NCBI RefSeq assembly: GCF_003259895.1 | Contig: NZ_QLME01000017.1 | Coordinates: 1 to 64,000, forward strand | Reading direction: 5' to 3' | Source: Halanaerobium saccharolyticum | GTDB lineage: Bacteria > Bacillota > Halanaerobiia > Halanaerobiales > Halanaerobiaceae | Length of the DNA: 64,000 nt | Shown here: positions 17,626-25,617 of the stretch, in pieces | How the letters are laid out: each line of letters opens with the position of its first letter | Position numbering within the stretch: position 1 is the first letter of the stretch | The notes under the pieces: model-generated | Seen by the model: only the letters and a program-made list of their open reading frames with translations | Told to the model about the DNA's origin: nothing | The model's database searches: none | Translations under genes and position numbers: made by a program

Positions 17626-19605
17626 ATGTATAAAATCTACAGCGGCAGTACTGGCAGTGGTAAAACTACAAAATTAAAAGCGGAATATCAAAGACTGGCT
17701 GCCGACTCAGGTAGTGAGAAAATATTGCTGTTTCTGAATTCAGCTCGTTCTGTCAGTCAGTTCCGGGAAGAAATTGACTTAAAGATGCTGGGTAATTTAA
17801 ATATTTATACATATTTTGGTTTTGTCAACCAGCAGTTAAATAAACACTGGCCGGCTGTAGAAAGAAATTACAGCGGTGTAAATCAGGTAATTGAACCAAC
17901 TTTTATGAATATCGAAACATCTCATTTTTTAATGAGTAATTATGTAGCTAAATATAGAAAAGATAAATCTTATTTTCGCAGTATTAAAGCCAGACCGGTG
18001 CAGATTGCAGTCCAGCTGATTGATAATTTAAATCTGGCGGCTTTTAATATGCTTGATTTTGAAGAACTTGAACAGAGGCTGCTCAGCTGGACTCAAAATG
18101 AGGAAGAACGTAAAGAATATGCAGAGCAGTCAATTGAAATTATGAAGACTTTTAGAAATTTTTCGTTAAACTACCGTTTGTTTGATTATTCTGCTGCAGT
18201 ATCATTATTTAACAGATATCTCCTTAAAAACGAGCAATATCTAAAAAATTTGAATAATAAATATAATTATCTGCTGGTAGATGATTTAGAGAAGATGATT
18301 CCTGCCGGTCAGGAATTGATAAAAACATTAACTGAAGCTCAGATCAAAGGAATTTTTACTTTTAATGAAAGCGGAGGCTTTAATCGTTTTTTTGGTGGAA
18401 ATCCGGCAGCAGCTAAAAAACGTTTTTTTGATTCAAATGCGGAAATAATAGAAATTAAGGAAAATTATACAGCAGCAGAAGCCAGCAGTCAGTTAGCTGC
18501 GGCAATAAAGTCTGTGGTTAAGGAAAGGAAATCAAATTTAGTTCAGTCACCGCTTTTATTAGAAGAGATAGACAGTGAGTTAAGAGGAGAAATGTTAATT
18601 AAAGTCGGAAAAAAAATTATTTCTCTCTTAAAAAAAGGGGTTGAAGCTGATCAGATAGCAGTTATTTCTCCTAAAATAGATAAGGTATTAAGTTTCAGTC
18701 TGGAGCAGATTTTAGAAAAAAATGGGTATCAATTAAGTAATTTTAACCGCTCAAAGCGTTTAATTGATATTCCCTTCGCCAGAGCCCTCTTAATATTATA
18801 TTTATTTCACTGTGAGCGGACCAACATAGTTGGAGTTTCTTCTCTGCAGCAGGCTCTTTCACTGCTCTTAGAACTTGACCCCCTGCGCTCATATATTCTG
18901 GCAGAAGAGATTGCAGCTTCAGGTATGGAGTTAATTGATCTTGACAAATCAGATTTAAGAGATAAGATTAATTTTCAGGCAGCAGAAAAATATGATTATT
19001 TAAAGGACTGGCTGCAGGATAAAAAGGAAGAACAATTAGAAATTGAGGTCTTCTTTCAGCTCGTTTTTAGTGAAGTTTTAGCACCTTTAGATCCTTCGCA
19101 GGAAGATATTTTTGCCTGTAGACAGATGATAGAATCAGTTGCTCGTTTTCATCAGGCGGTAGAAAACTTTCATCATCAAAAAGATGATTTAAGTGAGCGT
19201 TATATAAATATGATTTATGAGGGAACTCTGGCTGCCGAAACTCTATTTAAAGGACAGGAAAAAGAGGCGGGAGTTATCCTGGCTTCTCCTTATAAATTTT
19301 TGTTTTCACCTGAGCTGGCTGGAGTTGATTATTTATTCTTACTTGATATTTCAAGCAGTGACTGGCTGCAGAGTATTGCTAAGGAATTAGTTAATCCCTA
19401 TATTTATACCGAACAGTGGCAGCAGGTAAATAACTGGGATGATCAGCTTGACCAAAAGATTCGCTTAAATCAGCTTAGTGATTTTTTGATTAGTTTAATT
19501 TATAAAGTAAAAAAAGGAATTTATATAGCAGATAGTTTTCTAAACAGCAGTGGTAAAGAACAGGAAGGCCCACTTTACCGCTGGCTAGATGTGAGAGGAG
19601 AGTAA
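17626..19605 (+). CDS. AddB/RecC-like inactive-helicase partner (SF1 ATPase fold)
   Basis: The N-terminus carries an intact Walker A, GSTGSGKTT (residues 7-15), and a Walker B-like LLVDD at 216-220, so an SF1 ATP-binding fold is likely. The later helicase motifs are eroded: the motif III region (FNESGGFNRFFGGNP) keeps only the outline of the UvrD sequence, the motif V region lacks the T-x-H-K-x-KG-x-E pattern, and no motif VI arginine finger is visible. An intact P-loop with degenerate motor motifs is what AddB-type partner subunits show. Start ATG 17626 has GGGGAGG 7 nt upstream. It ends 2 nt before the UvrD-type helicase. I infer it is a subunit of a helicase-nuclease complex; the family assignment is tentative. 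Confidence 0.62.
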   Translation: MYKIYSGSTGSGKTTKLKAEYQRLAADSGSEKILLFLNSARSVSQFREEIDLKMLGNLNIYTYFGFVNQQLNKHWPAVERNYSGVNQVIEPTFMNIETSHFLMSNYVAKYRKDKSYFRSIKARPVQIAVQLIDNLNLAAFNMLDFEELEQRLLSWTQNEEERKEYAEQSIEIMKTFRNFSLNYRLFDYSAAVSLFNRYLLKNEQYLKNLNNKYNYLLVDDLEKMIPAGQELIKTLTEAQIKGIFTFNESGGFNRFFGGNPAAAKKRFFDSNAEIIEIKENYTAAEASSQLAAAIKSVVKERKSNLVQSPLLLEEIDSELRGEMLIKVGKKIISLLKKGVEADQIAVISPKIDKVLSFSLEQILEKNGYQLSNFNRSKRLIDIPFARALLILYLFHCERTNIVGVSSLQQALSLLLELDPLRSYILAEEIAASGMELIDLDKSDLRDKINFQAAEKYDYLKDWLQDKKEEQLEIEVFFQLVFSEVLAPLDPSQEDIFACRQMIESVARFHQAVENFHHQKDDLSERYINMIYEGTLAAETLFKGQEKEAGVILASPYKFLFSPELAGVDYLFLLDISSSDWLQSIAKELVNPYIYTEQWQQVNNWDDQLDQKIRLNQLSDFLISLIYKVKKGIYIADSFLNSSGKEQEGPLYRWLDVRGE

Positions 19606-19607
19606 GG

Positions 19608-21845
19608 ATGGATTTCAAACCGAGACCCGGACAGAAAGAAGTTTTAGAATATCGAGGTGGACAGCTTGCTGTTCCTGCAGTACCAGGTGCAGGTAAGACA
19701 ACAGTTCTTGCTCATCTGGCAGCAGAGTTGATTGCCTCTGAATTAGACAATGATCAAAAAATATTAATAGTGACCTATATGAACTCAGCAGTTGCCAACT
19801 TTCGCAAAAGAATTGGAGACTTTCTGGCTGAAAAGGGACTGCCCCGAAGCAGAGGTTATAGTGTTAAAACCCTTCATTCACTTGCCCTGGGTATTATTAA
19901 AGAAAAACCCGAAGCCAGATTGATTAATCAGGATTTCGAATTAATTGAATCAGGCAGACGCTACCGCTGGATTAAAGATTTATGCCGCAAATGGGCGGGA
20001 GAAAATAGTAATCTTTTACAGCAGTTTTTTAATCTGGAAAAAAACAGCTATCAATTTGATAAATACTTAAAAAAATGGAAAGAAGATGATTTCCCGGCCT
20101 ATGTAGCTTCCATGATTTCTTATTTTAAACTGAAGCTGCTCGAGGGAGAAGAGTTAAAAAATATGGTCAAGTATTCCAGTCTTAAGTCAGCTAATATTTT
20201 AACTCCGGCAGCAGAAATATTTGCAGAATATGAATTCAGGATGGCTCAGGCAGGTTTACTGGATTTTGATGATCTGGTTCAGCAGAGCTTAAAATTGCTT
20301 AAGGAAGACTCGAAATTTACCGAACGTATTGCCGCTCAATATGCCTTTGTGTTTGAAGATGAAGCTCAGGATTCCAATCAGGCCCAGGAAGAAATGCTTT
20401 ATCTGCTGGCAGGAAAAAATAATAACTTAGTTCGAGTTGGAGACAGCAACCAGGCAATCACAGGGACTTTTACCCTTTCAGATCCTGATATTTTCCGCAG
20501 CTACTGCAGAAGAGAAGATGTTGAAGTAGAAACTATGGCAGTTTCCAGCCGCAGTACCCGGGAGATTATTGACCTGGCAAATTATCTGGTTGACTGGAGC
20601 CAGGAAGAGTTTTCCGAAAGAGAGATTGACCCTCTAGAAGAAAAGTATATTGAACCTACTGCAGCAGACGATCCTTCACCAAATCCGGAAGTTGAAGGCT
20701 ATAGAATCGGCAGCCGGTCATTTAAGGACTGGAAAACGGAAAAGAAATTTATAGCCAGACAGGCTCTGCGCAAAGCCAGAGAAAATAATAAGCAGACTAC
20801 TGCAGTGCTGATGCCTACCGGCTGGCAGCTGGAAGAAATAGCAAGAGAAATTAATGCTCTGGGAGGCGAATTTCAGCTTGCCGGCAGCAGTTCCCGGGAT
20901 GCTTTCTTAACAGAACTGGAGGTAATTTTAAAATTTTTAACTTCCCCTGCTTCAGCTGATAATTTAAAACTGCTCTTTACCGAAGTTTTTGGCAGAGAAG
21001 AGGAAGAATTAAATCAGCTCTTGGAAGAAGCTCTGGCAGCAAAAGAAAATCAGGAACTTATTTTTCCGCTTTCAGGTTTAAATAGAGATAATTTTGAGCT
21101 TGAGTTTAGAAAAAAAGATGCTTTCGATCAGTTTTTTAAAAGCTTGACTCAAGTTCAGGGCTGGCTTGAAGCTTCAATGGAACTTCCTCCAGATGAACTG
21201 GTATTATTTCTGGCTGAAAGAATCGAATTGACTGGTAAGAAGCTGGCTCTGGCTCAAAATCTGGCTCTGGAATTTGGCAGGCTTTTAAAGGAAAATCCTG
21301 CCTGGCGGCTGGATCAGTTAACAGCAGAGCTGCCGGAAATTAGAGACCGAATCAGACAGTTTGCAGAAACTTTGACAGAAATGGAAGGATTTGAAGCTAA
21401 ACCGGATCAGGTAACACTTTCCACTCTGCATAAGGCCAAAGGTATGGAATGGGATACAGTATTTATTGGCAGCTTAACTTCAAGTCACTTTCAGCACGAT
21501 AGTGATGATTATTTTATGGGAGAAAAATTCTATTTAAACGAAGAAATTAAAAACCCTAAAGCTTCCGCCAGAGCGGAACTGGAGTTTATTTTAAATGAAA
21601 AAAAGGAACGCAATGCAGATCATAAAGCCAGACAGGAATTAATTGCCGAAAGAGTCCGCCTGCTTTATGTAGGAATTACCAGAGCCCGTATAAATTTATT
21701 TTTAAGCACTCATCAAAAACGGGGGAAATGGGATAAGGATCCGGCATTTATTTTTACTTCCCTGGAAAAATTCATTTCAGAAAAGAAAGAGGAATTTCAA
21801 AGCGGAAATTATAAGAGGGAGGAAAAAATAAATGGCAGTCAATAA
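19608..21845 (+). CDS. UvrD/REP-type SF1A DNA helicase (RecB/AddA-like motor)
   Basis: All SF1A motifs are visible: motif I PGAGKTT (residues 26-32), motif II DEAQD (251-255), motif III VGDSNQAITG, motif IV SSRSTREI, motif V TLHKAKGMEWD and motif VI LLYVGITRARI. At 745 aa it has no C-terminal nuclease domain, unlike AddA or RecB. The start ATG lies 2 nt after the preceding stop, and the 3' end overlaps the nuclease gene by 14 nt, so the three are translated together. I infer it is the active motor of a break-end-processing complex. Confidence 0.85.
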   Translation: MDFKPRPGQKEVLEYRGGQLAVPAVPGAGKTTVLAHLAAELIASELDNDQKILIVTYMNSAVANFRKRIGDFLAEKGLPRSRGYSVKTLHSLALGIIKEKPEARLINQDFELIESGRRYRWIKDLCRKWAGENSNLLQQFFNLEKNSYQFDKYLKKWKEDDFPAYVASMISYFKLKLLEGEELKNMVKYSSLKSANILTPAAEIFAEYEFRMAQAGLLDFDDLVQQSLKLLKEDSKFTERIAAQYAFVFEDEAQDSNQAQEEMLYLLAGKNNNLVRVGDSNQAITGTFTLSDPDIFRSYCRREDVEVETMAVSSRSTREIIDLANYLVDWSQEEFSEREIDPLEEKYIEPTAADDPSPNPEVEGYRIGSRSFKDWKTEKKFIARQALRKARENNKQTTAVLMPTGWQLEEIAREINALGGEFQLAGSSSRDAFLTELEVILKFLTSPASADNLKLLFTEVFGREEEELNQLLEEALAAKENQELIFPLSGLNRDNFELEFRKKDAFDQFFKSLTQVQGWLEASMELPPDELVLFLAERIELTGKKLALAQNLALEFGRLLKENPAWRLDQLTAELPEIRDRIRQFAETLTEMEGFEAKPDQVTLSTLHKAKGMEWDTVFIGSLTSSHFQHDSDDYFMGEKFYLNEEIKNPKASARAELEFILNEKKERNADHKARQELIAERVRLLYVGITRARINLFLSTHQKRGKWDKDPAFIFTSLEKFISEKKEEFQSGNYKREEKINGSQ

Positions 21846-22629
21846 CTTAAAAGATCTTTATTTTTCACAGTCTGCTCTCTCTATTTTTAAGGACTGCCGC
21901 CGAAGATTTCGCTATCGTTATCTGGATGGACTTTACTGGCCGGCAGAATGGGGAATGAATGAAGAAGTAAAAAAGGATTTAAAACAGGGAAGCCTGTTCC
22001 ACCTTCTGGCAGAAAGATATTACAGTCAGACTCTGGGAGAAACTGTTCTAAGTTCAAATCAGCTGCTGCAGTCCTGGTTAAATAGATTAAAAACTTTCTG
22101 TCCGGCAGAAAACATAGTTGCTGCAGAACAGGAACTGCGTTTTCAGAAAAAAAACTTAAAATTACTGGCCAAATATGATCTTTTAAAATATGATCAAGGA
22201 CAGAGTAAATTTATAATATATGACTGGAAAACAGACAAAAAAAGTCTGTACGAAAAGGATATTGAAAATTCTATGCAGAGCCGTTTTTATCTATATCTTT
22301 TATTTGAAGCAGGTTATGAATATTTTGCTGCTGATTATAAGCTGCAGGAAATGCCAGAACTTATTTACTGGAATCCTCGTTATCCGGACCAAAATATTCA
22401 AATTAATTATAGTAAAGCTGATTTCAAAAAGGATAGGGACTATTTTCAAAAATTAATCACAGAAATTTTAACTGAAGAAGTATTTCCGCTGACAGATGAT
22501 TTAAATAAATGTAGATTTTGTGAATATAGACCAATCTGCAGGGGAAAAACCCCTGAAAGCAAGGAAGTAATAGAAGAAGACCTGGATTTAAATCTAGACT
22601 GGGAAGCAGTAGAAGAAATAGAGTTTTAA
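21832..22629 (+). CDS. Free-standing RecB-family PD-(D/E)XK nuclease with Fe-S cysteines
   Basis: This 265-aa protein has the RecB/AddB nuclease pattern: a histidine in GSLFHLLAERY, Asp116, Asp131-Trp-Lys133 as the D-x-K catalytic pair, and a Q-x3-FYLY helix motif. Four cysteines, Cys22, Cys227, Cys230 and Cys236, give the C-n-C-x2-C-x5-C arrangement known to hold a 4Fe-4S cluster in AddB and Cas4 nucleases. In AddAB this domain is fused to the helicase subunits; here it is separate. It overlaps the helicase gene by 14 nt. There are no cas genes nearby, so Cas4 is unlikely. Confidence 0.85.
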   Translation: MAVNNLKDLYFSQSALSIFKDCRRRFRYRYLDGLYWPAEWGMNEEVKKDLKQGSLFHLLAERYYSQTLGETVLSSNQLLQSWLNRLKTFCPAENIVAAEQELRFQKKNLKLLAKYDLLKYDQGQSKFIIYDWKTDKKSLYEKDIENSMQSRFYLYLLFEAGYEYFAADYKLQEMPELIYWNPRYPDQNIQINYSKADFKKDRDYFQKLITEILTEEVFPLTDDLNKCRFCEYRPICRGKTPESKEVIEEDLDLNLDWEAVEEIEF

Positions 22630-22717: not shown

Positions 22718-23299
22718 ATGTTTAGAAAAGATGAGGAAGATTATCAGCTGCGCTATATTTACCATACCAACCAGCACAATAAGGCCTATTTAATTGAGCT
22801 TAATTTAGATTGTTATGATGATTTATTTAACAGCTGGGATGGTTCGGCTCTTGACCGCAAAGAGCTTGATCCGGAACTGAGTCATTTTTTGGAAAGAGCA
22901 AGTTATGAACTGCCTTTAAAAGACAGGGTGGAGCTTTGTTTTTATCTACCTGAGAGCAAAAAGGACGAAAAAATGGAAGCTGATTCCAGGGCTACTATTA
23001 AAAATAATTTTAGAATGAAGCTCTTTTTTATTAATCAGGATTTAAAGCAAAATAGCAAAAAAATTGCCACCTATATTTTAATGGGGATTACATTTTTAAT
23101 TACAGCTTATTTAATTCCCGAGAGTAAAGATCTATCACTTTTAATTTCCCTGTTGATGGAAGGATTATTTGTTGGGGGTTGGGTTTTTCTCTGGGAGGCT
23201 TTTTCTATTTTCTTTTTTGGCAGCCGTGAACTTAAAGATAAGAAAAAAAGATATTTTCGTTATCTGGACTCAAATATACTGTTTAAATATAGAGAATGA
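22718..23299 (+). CDS. Uncharacterised membrane protein beside recJ
   Basis: I do not recognise this protein. It is about 193 aa. The N-terminal half is soluble and acidic, and two hydrophobic segments lie near residues 110-130 and 135-160, followed by a short basic tail (KDKKKRYFRY). ATG 22718 has no ribosome-binding site in front. A strong GAGGTG lies at 22674-22679, yet the only plausible in-frame codon near it is ATA 22691, which would add nine residues that look natural. The stop overlaps the region before recJ, so it is co-transcribed with recJ. Confidence 0.6.
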   Translation: MFRKDEEDYQLRYIYHTNQHNKAYLIELNLDCYDDLFNSWDGSALDRKELDPELSHFLERASYELPLKDRVELCFYLPESKKDEKMEADSRATIKNNFRMKLFFINQDLKQNSKKIATYILMGITFLITAYLIPESKDLSLLISLLMEGLFVGGWVFLWEAFSIFFFGSRELKDKKKRYFRYLDSNILFKYRE

Positions 23300-23310
23300 A
23301 AGGGGCAGAG

Positions 23311-25617
23311 ATGAGGATAAAAAAGGCAGAAAACTGCAGAGCAAAAAAAGAATTAGTCGAATATTTGGGCAGCCGGAAGCTGGCCTGTCTGGCCCAGAAG
23401 CGGGGACTGGACACTAAAGCTAAATTAATTGAGTTTATTGAACCAGAACGATATTCTCCACTTGAACTGGAAGACTTTCCCCAGATAATGGAGATTGGGG
23501 ACTTTATTTTAGAACATATTAAAAAAGGGAGCCGAATTTTAATTTATGGTGATTATGATGTTGATGGAATAACTTCCACTTCAATTCTAGTGGGGGCTTT
23601 GAGTCGTCTGAGCAATCAGATCAGCTATCATATTCCGGACCGTTTTAAAGAAGGTTATGGTCTTAATCAGGAGGTGCTGGCTTCTTATCAGGAAGAGATT
23701 GATCTGGTGATCAGCTGTGATTGTGGAATCAGCAATTATGAGGAAGTCAAATTTGCCAGAGAAGCCGGAATGGACTTTATTGTAACAGACCATCATGATT
23801 TACCGGAGGAACTGCCGCCTGCCAATTATGTAATTTCCCCCCGGCTGCTGCCTGAAGATCATCAGGGTTACTGGCTGCCAGGAGCAGGGATGGCCTATTT
23901 TTTAATTAAAGCAATTTTTATAAAGTCCGGGAATAAGGGGGAGGAAAAAGAATTTTTAGATCTTTTACTGCTGGCAATTATAGCAGATGTAGTACCTCTT
24001 AAAGGAGAAAACCGATACTTATTTAAAACAGGACTAAAAAAACTACAACACACAGACAGAATAGGACTTAAGGCACTTTATAATGAGCTTGAGATTAACC
24101 CGCTGGAGATCAACGAAAAGACCCTGGGGTTTCAAATTGGACCATTATTAAACTCTGCCGGTAGAATTGACAGTGCAGAAAAAGGTTTAAAATTATTACT
24201 GGCAGAAAATAAAGATCAAGCAGCTGGTCTGGCGGCGGAATTAAAACAGATCAATCAACACCGCAAGGAGATAAGCCAGAAAATTTATCAGGAACTGGAA
24301 AAAAAGCTCGATCCTCAGCAGAGACAGGCAGTGGTAAGCTATGATTCTGACTGGCATCAGGGAGTAATTGGGATTGCTGCCGGTAGAATTACAGAAAATT
24401 ATCAGGTGCCAGCTGTTTTGATGACTTCCAATCAGCAGAGTGGTCTGATTACAGGTTCAGCTCGTTCAATTGAAGGTATTAATATCAATAATTTAATTGC
24501 TGAATGTACTGATCTTCTGGAAAAACACGGTGGTCATGCTGCAGCGGCTGGATTTTCACTAAAAAAAGATAGGCTGGAGAAGTTCAAATTAAGACTGCAG
24601 CGCTTAATTGAACAGGAGTTAGAAAAACTCGATTCAGAGCTGGAAATTGAGACAGATATAAATTTAAAAATGTCGGAAATTACAGAGGAATTTTACCAGG
24701 GCTTACGCCTCTTTGCTCCGTTTGGTGAAGGAAATCCGGAACCACTCTTTTATCTGGAAAGTGATATTTTGAGCAGCCGTGAGATTTCGGCCGGCAGACA
24801 TAAACGTCTAATTTTAGGCTCAGCAGAGAAAAAAATTACTGCTCTCTGGTGGTGGGCCGGGGAAATAGAAAATAATTACCGACAGCAGAGTGCCTGCAGA
24901 CTTACAGAAAATATTTATAGGGGCAGCAGGAGCCTGCAGCTGGAAATTAAAGCTCTGGCCCCCCTGAAAGATAAAAGTAAAAAAACAGAAAGTAAAATTG
25001 AAGCGAAAAAGAAACTTAGCATATTAGACTGGCGGCAGAAAAAGGCATCTCAGTTGGAAGCAGGGGTGGAAAATACTGTTTATTTTGCTGAAGGTTTAGC
25101 AGAATATGATCTCTACCCTTTAATTAATCGCAACTACTATCGAGGGGCTGAAAATTTAGTCCTGCTTACTATTCCACCTTCTTTAGCTATCTTAAAAGAA
25201 ATTATACTGTTAACCACAGCTAAAAAATTGATTTTAGTTAATAATGAAAAGCAAGGGGTAAGTATAAATGATTTTATTAATAAGCTTCTATCTCTGATTA
25301 AATACAGTCTGCAGCAGGAAAATGGGGTTTTTAATATTGAACAGGCTGCACTAGCTCTGGGAGCTAAAGATATAACTATCAAAAGAAGCTTAGAATTTTT
25401 GCAGGCTCAGGCAGTGATTAATTTTGAATATATTTCTTATCAGGAACTTTTAATTACAAAAGGTGGAAATAAGGATCAGGGAAAAGCAAATTTAAGCAAA
25501 AAAAATTTGACCAAACTTTTAAAAGAAAGTTCTGCATTTAGAAGATTTATTAATAATAAGTCAGCAGCTAAAATAGAAAATCTAATAAATAAAACTCTAA
25601 TTTCAGGAAAATCTTGA
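23311..25617 (+). CDS. recJ: Single-strand-specific 5'-3' exonuclease RecJ
   Basis: RecJ degrades single-stranded DNA 5' to 3' in recombination and mismatch repair. The DHH domain shows YGDYDVDGITST, CDCGISN and the defining TDHHDLPE; the DHHA1 domain shows GGHAAAAGFSL near residue 410. The length is 768 aa because of a ~200-residue C-terminal extension of a kind seen in Firmicute RecJ proteins. ATG 23311 with AAAGGGG upstream is preferred over ATG 23296, which overlaps the previous stop codon. Its position downstream of the helicase-nuclease set suggests a shared DNA-repair role. Confidence 0.92.
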   Translation: MRIKKAENCRAKKELVEYLGSRKLACLAQKRGLDTKAKLIEFIEPERYSPLELEDFPQIMEIGDFILEHIKKGSRILIYGDYDVDGITSTSILVGALSRLSNQISYHIPDRFKEGYGLNQEVLASYQEEIDLVISCDCGISNYEEVKFAREAGMDFIVTDHHDLPEELPPANYVISPRLLPEDHQGYWLPGAGMAYFLIKAIFIKSGNKGEEKEFLDLLLLAIIADVVPLKGENRYLFKTGLKKLQHTDRIGLKALYNELEINPLEINEKTLGFQIGPLLNSAGRIDSAEKGLKLLLAENKDQAAGLAAELKQINQHRKEISQKIYQELEKKLDPQQRQAVVSYDSDWHQGVIGIAAGRITENYQVPAVLMTSNQQSGLITGSARSIEGININNLIAECTDLLEKHGGHAAAAGFSLKKDRLEKFKLRLQRLIEQELEKLDSELEIETDINLKMSEITEEFYQGLRLFAPFGEGNPEPLFYLESDILSSREISAGRHKRLILGSAEKKITALWWWAGEIENNYRQQSACRLTENIYRGSRSLQLEIKALAPLKDKSKKTESKIEAKKKLSILDWRQKKASQLEAGVENTVYFAEGLAEYDLYPLINRNYYRGAENLVLLTIPPSLAILKEIILLTTAKKLILVNNEKQGVSINDFINKLLSLIKYSLQQENGVFNIEQAALALGAKDITIKRSLEFLQAQAVINFEYISYQELLITKGGNKDQGKANLSKKNLTKLLKESSAFRRFINNKSAAKIENLINKTLISGKS

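Follow-up and report, generated by a model that had tools for sequence, protein, structure and literature searches.

A split AddAB-like gene set with a dedicated RecJ as a candidate DNA end-processing machine in Halanaerobium saccharolyticum

The window analysed here is the whole 64,000-nucleotide stretch of Halanaerobium saccharolyticum DNA (contig NZ_QLME01000017.1, positions 1 to 64,000). Its plus strand carries three closely packed genes, A (17626–19605, 659 aa), B (19608–21845, 745 aa) and C (21832–22629, 265 aa), with a gap of 2 nt between A and B and an overlap of 14 nt between B and C, exactly as a preliminary description of this DNA had placed them. Gene A opens with an ATG at 17626, a start that is backed by an upstream GGGGAGG ribosome site. 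Promoter scans scored the real sequence no better than shuffles. A recJ gene follows on the same strand (23296–25617) and is discussed below as RecJ2. Current annotation names A, B and C hypothetical protein, ATP-dependent helicase and PD-(D/E)XK nuclease, and the present analysis offers a family name for proteins that have so far carried such generic annotations only.

Protein A is an inactivated subunit of the SF1A/UvrD fold, with an AddB/AdnB-like helicase region and no nuclease. It matches Pfam UvrD-helicase with an E-value of 5e-10. The Walker A motif GSTGSGKT (residues 7–14; 17644–17667, plus strand) is intact, and its residues G7, G12 and K13, together with the Walker B residue D219, are unchanged in 33/33 relatives. 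In motif II (18280–18285, plus strand) the invariant D219 is followed by D220 at the position of the catalytic Glu, which is held by Asp in 21 relatives, Asn in 11 and Glu in 1, thus by D/N in 32/33. Lost across the same 33 relatives are the motif III Gln, the motif IV Arg, the motif V KG-E and the motif VI Arg. The erosion of motifs III, V and VI beside an intact Walker A had been read from the single sequence and holds throughout the family; the losses of the catalytic Glu and of motif IV are additional to that list. Since Walker A is kept while these motifs are gone, A probably binds ATP but hardly hydrolyses it.

The AlphaFold model of A (pLDDT 80) contains the whole SF1A core, and all four SF1A domains are covered by Rep/UvrD, AdnB and AddB structures. 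Rep/UvrD/PcrA structures give the top Z (27), yet with an rmsd of 8–11. The overall arrangement is fitted better by AdnB (589 aligned residues, rmsd 5.4 Å, Z 23.8) and by AddB (about 595 aligned, 6.5 Å, Z 20, over AddB residues 2–696 only). An AddB-like fold, which the preliminary description had expected in the first protein, is therefore present in the model, as a resemblance to the helicase-like region of AddB/AdnB. Sequence comparison places A less firmly. A search of the PDB with A as a single protein returned no relative, the curated addB model gave no match at E ≤ 1, and a profile search matched PcrA/UvrD/AdnA. Profile comparison put A slightly nearer PcrA (2e-13) than AddB, with 2.6e-12 for divergent AddB and 1.6e-6 for canonical AddB. 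A full-length homologue of A (WP_013389168.1) is encoded on pILYOP01 of Ilyobacter polytropus (L155, 8001–9974), with neither B nor C adjoining.

Protein B is an intact UvrD/PcrA-type SF1A 3′–5′ helicase motor. It matches Pfam UvrD-helicase (2.7e-45) and UvrD_C (3.1e-22), and the Pfam search revealed no nuclease domain. All catalytic motifs are invariant in 32–33 relatives, including DEAQD, GDxNQ, K611/G612/E614 and R692. These results bear out the earlier reading of B as a complete helicase lacking a nuclease. B is nearest to PcrA, then to AddA (profile comparison, 3.7e-62 and 2e-52, respectively), and its score of 100 bits against the curated AddA model is below the cut-off of 707.65.

Protein C is a free-standing PD-(D/E)XK nuclease of the AdnA/AddB/Cas4 Fe-S type, matching Pfam PDDEXK_1 with an E-value of 1.3e-29. 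Cys22 (21895–21897, plus strand) and the Cys227-x2-Cys230-x5-Cys236 segment (22510–22539, plus strand) are invariant in 32/32 relatives, and an Fe-S cluster is predicted from this Cys pattern. The four cysteines and the free nuclease were already recognised in the preliminary description. The active-site residues H57, D116, K133, Q149 and Y153 are likewise kept in 32/32 relatives, and D131 in 31/32. The exception is a Halanaerobium relative (L053, 8394–9191) with Tyr in place of Asp131 (IFYWKT); this nuclease may be inactive, or the change may be a sequence error. The closest structure to the model of C (pLDDT 85) is that of the AdnA nuclease (Z 16.7, 216 aligned residues, rmsd 3.5 Å), followed by the Argonaute-associated ACE1 (Z 14.6) and AddB (Z 13.3). 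With C as a single protein, a PDB sequence search found no relative; a profile search matched ACE1, and profile comparison with a divergent AddB nuclease gave 2.7e-11.

The last 23 residues of C (243–265; 22558–22626, plus strand) form an acidic tail ending DLDLNLDWEAVEEIEF that is predicted to be disordered (pLDDT 33–44). Within it W257 is invariant in 32/32 relatives, and the sequences repeatedly end in (D)W..(V/I)EEI.F; the Salinibacter tail reads DLDDVEEIEF. Conservation in a segment predicted to be disordered suggests that the tail is a docking peptide. Its resemblance to the C-terminal tip of SSB is only an idea.

RecJ2 scores 488 bits against TIGR00644, above the cut-off of 396.9, and is assigned to the RecJ family of 5′–3′ ssDNA exonucleases. 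All operon copies carry GDYDxDG (Phe in the copy on plasmid pSR56) and DHH. Two recJ genes occur in 15/19 genomes with A-B-C and in 1/20 without (Fisher p 2e-6, with genomes counted as independent and shared descent ignored), and the operon copies group in a clade of their own, separate from the housekeeping ones. Because of these counts and the separate clade, we take the recJ next to A-B-C to be a dedicated second RecJ and the fourth gene of the cassette, a part that the preliminary description overlooked. The possibility that the operon gene is itself the housekeeping copy was rejected, as a second recJ of this genome (G000:C5) falls outside the operon clade. The lone recJ of one genome, G082, falls inside that clade and is located away from A-B-C. 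A tree constrained to keep the operon copies as one clade without this gene was not favoured, nor was it rejected (p-AU 0.08). Another genome, G379, has one recJ, not adjoining A-B-C.

Homologues of A occur in 25/38 genomes of the order and in 28/398 drawn from the phylum, with no matches in the interval from E 1e-86 to 1e-15. In a sample of 199 phylum genomes, the profiles of A and C pick out the identical 14 and no others, in counts that take genomes singly and ignore shared descent. The A-B-C order holds in every locus uncut by a contig end, with the genes in most cases overlapping or separated by a few bases, and B and C are on separate chains in all loci read. Since the order recurs in each A-bearing genome whose contig permits, the set is not a chance arrangement. 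The most divergent A-B-C set was seen in G379 (L192, 6655–11599; GC 0.70), where the frame of C is longer, at 411 aa. Over 25 loci, the pairwise distances calculated for A, B, C and RecJ2 are correlated (r 0.72–0.90), as expected for co-inherited genes; shared species descent alone gives the same. That the four proteins are co-expressed yet act separately, without a complex, would be compatible with each having its own fold unit and with the complete catalytic sites of B, C and RecJ2. We regard this as quite improbable, given that A lacks a complete catalytic site and is nevertheless always accompanied by C in the sampled genomes, and that the C tail is conserved despite being disordered alone.

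Outside the phylum, the cassette was found on the 56-kb plasmid pSR56 of Salinibacter ruber M8 as A-B-C-recJ in the same order (L156, 9938–17821). This plasmid-borne copy, the scores of B with GajB models (E 1.7e-45) and the occurrence of UvrD–Cas4 fusions in defence contexts (PMC5704561) are what would be expected if the set degraded foreign DNA as a defence or mobile-element system, similar to such fusions or to Gabija. The cassette, however, is surrounded by housekeeping genes that are conserved throughout the genus, the set includes neither GajA nor any other PADLOC partner, pSR56 is the only plasmid with A-B-C, and homologues of A or C are absent from 50,697 phage records. A defence island was rejected on this gene context, the phage search and the missing PADLOC partners, and a defensive role in general appears very improbable. 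The organisation also differs from the systems compared. In Gabija a GajA TOPRIM partner stands beside GajB, whereas B is flanked by A and C; UvrD–Cas4 fusions are single chains, while B and C are separate genes.

The preliminary description read the three genes as a split end-resection machine and implied that AddAB would be lacking. The division into a motor, an inactive SF1 partner and an Fe-S nuclease on separate chains stands, but the implied absence does not. The same genome encodes a fused pair of AddA-like (1079 aa) and AddB-like (866 aa) proteins (G000:C4:41619-47355), so the candidate explanation that AddAB is absent from it was rejected. A complete AddAB elsewhere and the want of an AddB-like fold in the first protein had been named as findings that would tell against the split machine; of these an AddAB-like pair has been found, while the AddB-like fold is present in the model of A. 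The AddB-like protein of the pair has an Fe-S nuclease, the best match of the AddA-like protein is PRK13909, and an AddB-like protein of this type is present in 32/38 genomes of the order. The pair (L038, 2620–8356, minus strand) is divergent and scores under the NCBIfam AddA/AddB cut-offs. Because it is present, A-B-C is no replacement for AddAB in this genome, nor is end resection reserved for A-B-C there.

Other genomes have less. No AddB above the addB_Gpos cut-off was found in any of the 14 A-B-C genomes, against 85/185 without the set, in the sample of 199 genomes. Two genomes, G041 and G088 (99% complete), contain no AddB over the cut-off and no AddA-length frame, and C is their sole PDDEXK_1 nuclease above the cut-off. 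The PDDEXK_1 search was positive in E. coli and Corynebacterium controls, and nucleases of the RecB or AdnA type would therefore have shown. In at least one lineage, A-B-C-RecJ2 is thus the only set of the AddAB/RecBCD/AdnAB type found.

These findings bear on whether the set serves other lesions, such as gaps, stalled forks or crosslinks, with B and RecJ2 widening ssDNA gaps and C nicking flaps. RecJ is chiefly a gap and fork exonuclease (PMC9836290), and an AddAB-like pair is already available in the genome of the window. On the other side, end-resection complexes are characterised by the combination of a dead SF1 partner and an Fe-S nuclease, and G041 and G088 have nothing else of that class. 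We consider a role confined to such lesions doubtful.

The origin of the set was addressed with a tree of SF1 proteins comprising A, B, AddA, AddB, PcrA and UvrD-like sequences. In this tree, A and all AddB fall to one side of a split (SH-aLRT 97) that separates them from B, AddA, PcrA and UvrD-like proteins. This split, and the Fe-S type of C, which is found on AddB and AdnA, would fit an ordinary AddAB broken by fission, in which A and C are the parts of AddB and B is AddA minus its nuclease, all with the same Chi-regulated function. The grouping of A with AddB could, however, stem from long-branch attraction among degenerate proteins, A itself having a long, degenerate branch. A and B each form a family of their own (support 100) that lies outside the AddB and AddA clades, C comes after B rather than after A, the AdnA nuclease fits C better than the AddB nuclease does, and the genome retains a fused AddAB-like pair too. 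Simple fission is accordingly an unlikely account.

Comparison with the known complexes shows a mixture of shared and distinct features. RecBCD, AddAB and AdnAB have their nucleases fused to motors. As in AddAB, one active SF1A motor is combined with an inactivated SF1 partner retaining Walker A, as judged here from motif conservation, and with a PD-(D/E)XK nuclease with a four-Cys Fe-S set, which is C on the basis of its Cys pattern. AddAB, in contrast, has two nuclease domains fused to the C-termini of its subunits, rather than one on its own chain; its subunits are of about 1150 + 1230 aa rather than 659 + 745 + 265 aa; and the present set has a dedicated RecJ and does not reach the NCBIfam AddA/AddB cut-offs. 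The overall arrangement of A fits AdnB best and C fits the AdnA nuclease, while in AdnAB each subunit has a nuclease fused to it, which is true of no subunit here. RecBCD likewise consists of three polypeptides with an SF1A motor and a dead helicase-like subunit, the latter suggesting a RecC-like role for A; a second motor of the SF1B RecD type and the fused RecB nuclease are missing here, and a separate nuclease is present instead. RecQ and RecJ also resect 5′ ends jointly as a separate helicase and exonuclease; the RecJ of the present cassette differs in being a dedicated paralog and in its linkage to a PD-(D/E)XK nuclease and an AddAB-like set.

An unfused UvrD and Cas4-like operon, mostly of Clostridiales and with a suggested role in repair, is reported by Hudaiberdiev et al. 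2017 (PMC5704561). There, too, a UvrD helicase adjoins a pfam12705 Cas4-like nuclease. The text on that operon mentions neither a third helicase-like protein nor RecJ. The preliminary description did not recognise the architecture as a described complex, and the literature searched likewise contained no description of the A-B-C-RecJ set.

We therefore favour, as the probable reading, that A, B, C and RecJ2 constitute a machine of four polypeptides that processes double-strand DNA ends, similar to AddAB/AdnAB in function and different in build. This reading draws on gene content, motif states, predicted folds, strict linkage and the dedicated recJ clade; complex formation, strand assignment and the RecA substrate we infer. 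Beyond motif and fold, the mechanism is modelled by analogy with AddAB, in which a single SF1A motor runs on the 3′ strand, the helicase-like region of AddB reads Chi, and after Chi the 5′ strand alone is degraded (PMC4027173; PMC4824097). B would be the sole active motor, pulling the 3′-ended strand by 3′–5′ SF1A translocation. A, as a dead helicase still binding ATP, would be positioned beside B or behind it, acting as a structural partner and ssDNA scanner or strand-guide, a role modelled on the helicase-like part of AddB. C would place a single Fe-S nuclease at the 5′-strand exit on its own chain, with the conserved C-terminal tail as the tether to A or B, and RecJ2 would clear the displaced 5′ strand by digestion. 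The product would be a 3′ tail for RecA, made without the destructive pre-Chi phase of AddAB, because the nucleases of the set are limited to one of AddB/AdnA type and a 5′–3′ exonuclease, and an AddA-type nuclease for the 3′ strand is lacking. It would behave like an AddAB already switched by Chi. Against this explanation stand the position of RecJ2 apart from A-B-C in G082 and the single, non-adjoining recJ of G379, the Ilyobacter homologue of A without B or C beside it, and the marginally closer match of A to PcrA than to AddB by profile comparison.

More tentatively, the set may represent a further class of bacterial end-resection enzyme beside RecBCD, AddAB and AdnAB, consisting of scanner, motor, tethered nuclease and RecJ, acting on the 5′ strand only and serving as the sole such machine in some lineages. 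If so, the 3′ strand would be spared, and 3′ tails made, with no requirement for Chi. The separate chains let each role be tested by omitting one protein, whereas the nucleases of RecBCD, AddAB and AdnAB are not removable or exchangeable without cutting the protein. Whether break repair can be sustained by the set alone could be examined genetically in the lineage of G041 and G088.

One further frame lies between C and recJ in the window, a membrane-like ORF of 193 aa and unknown family (22718–23299, plus strand). It is missing from most loci, was seen in some close relatives only and is probably not a core part of the cassette.
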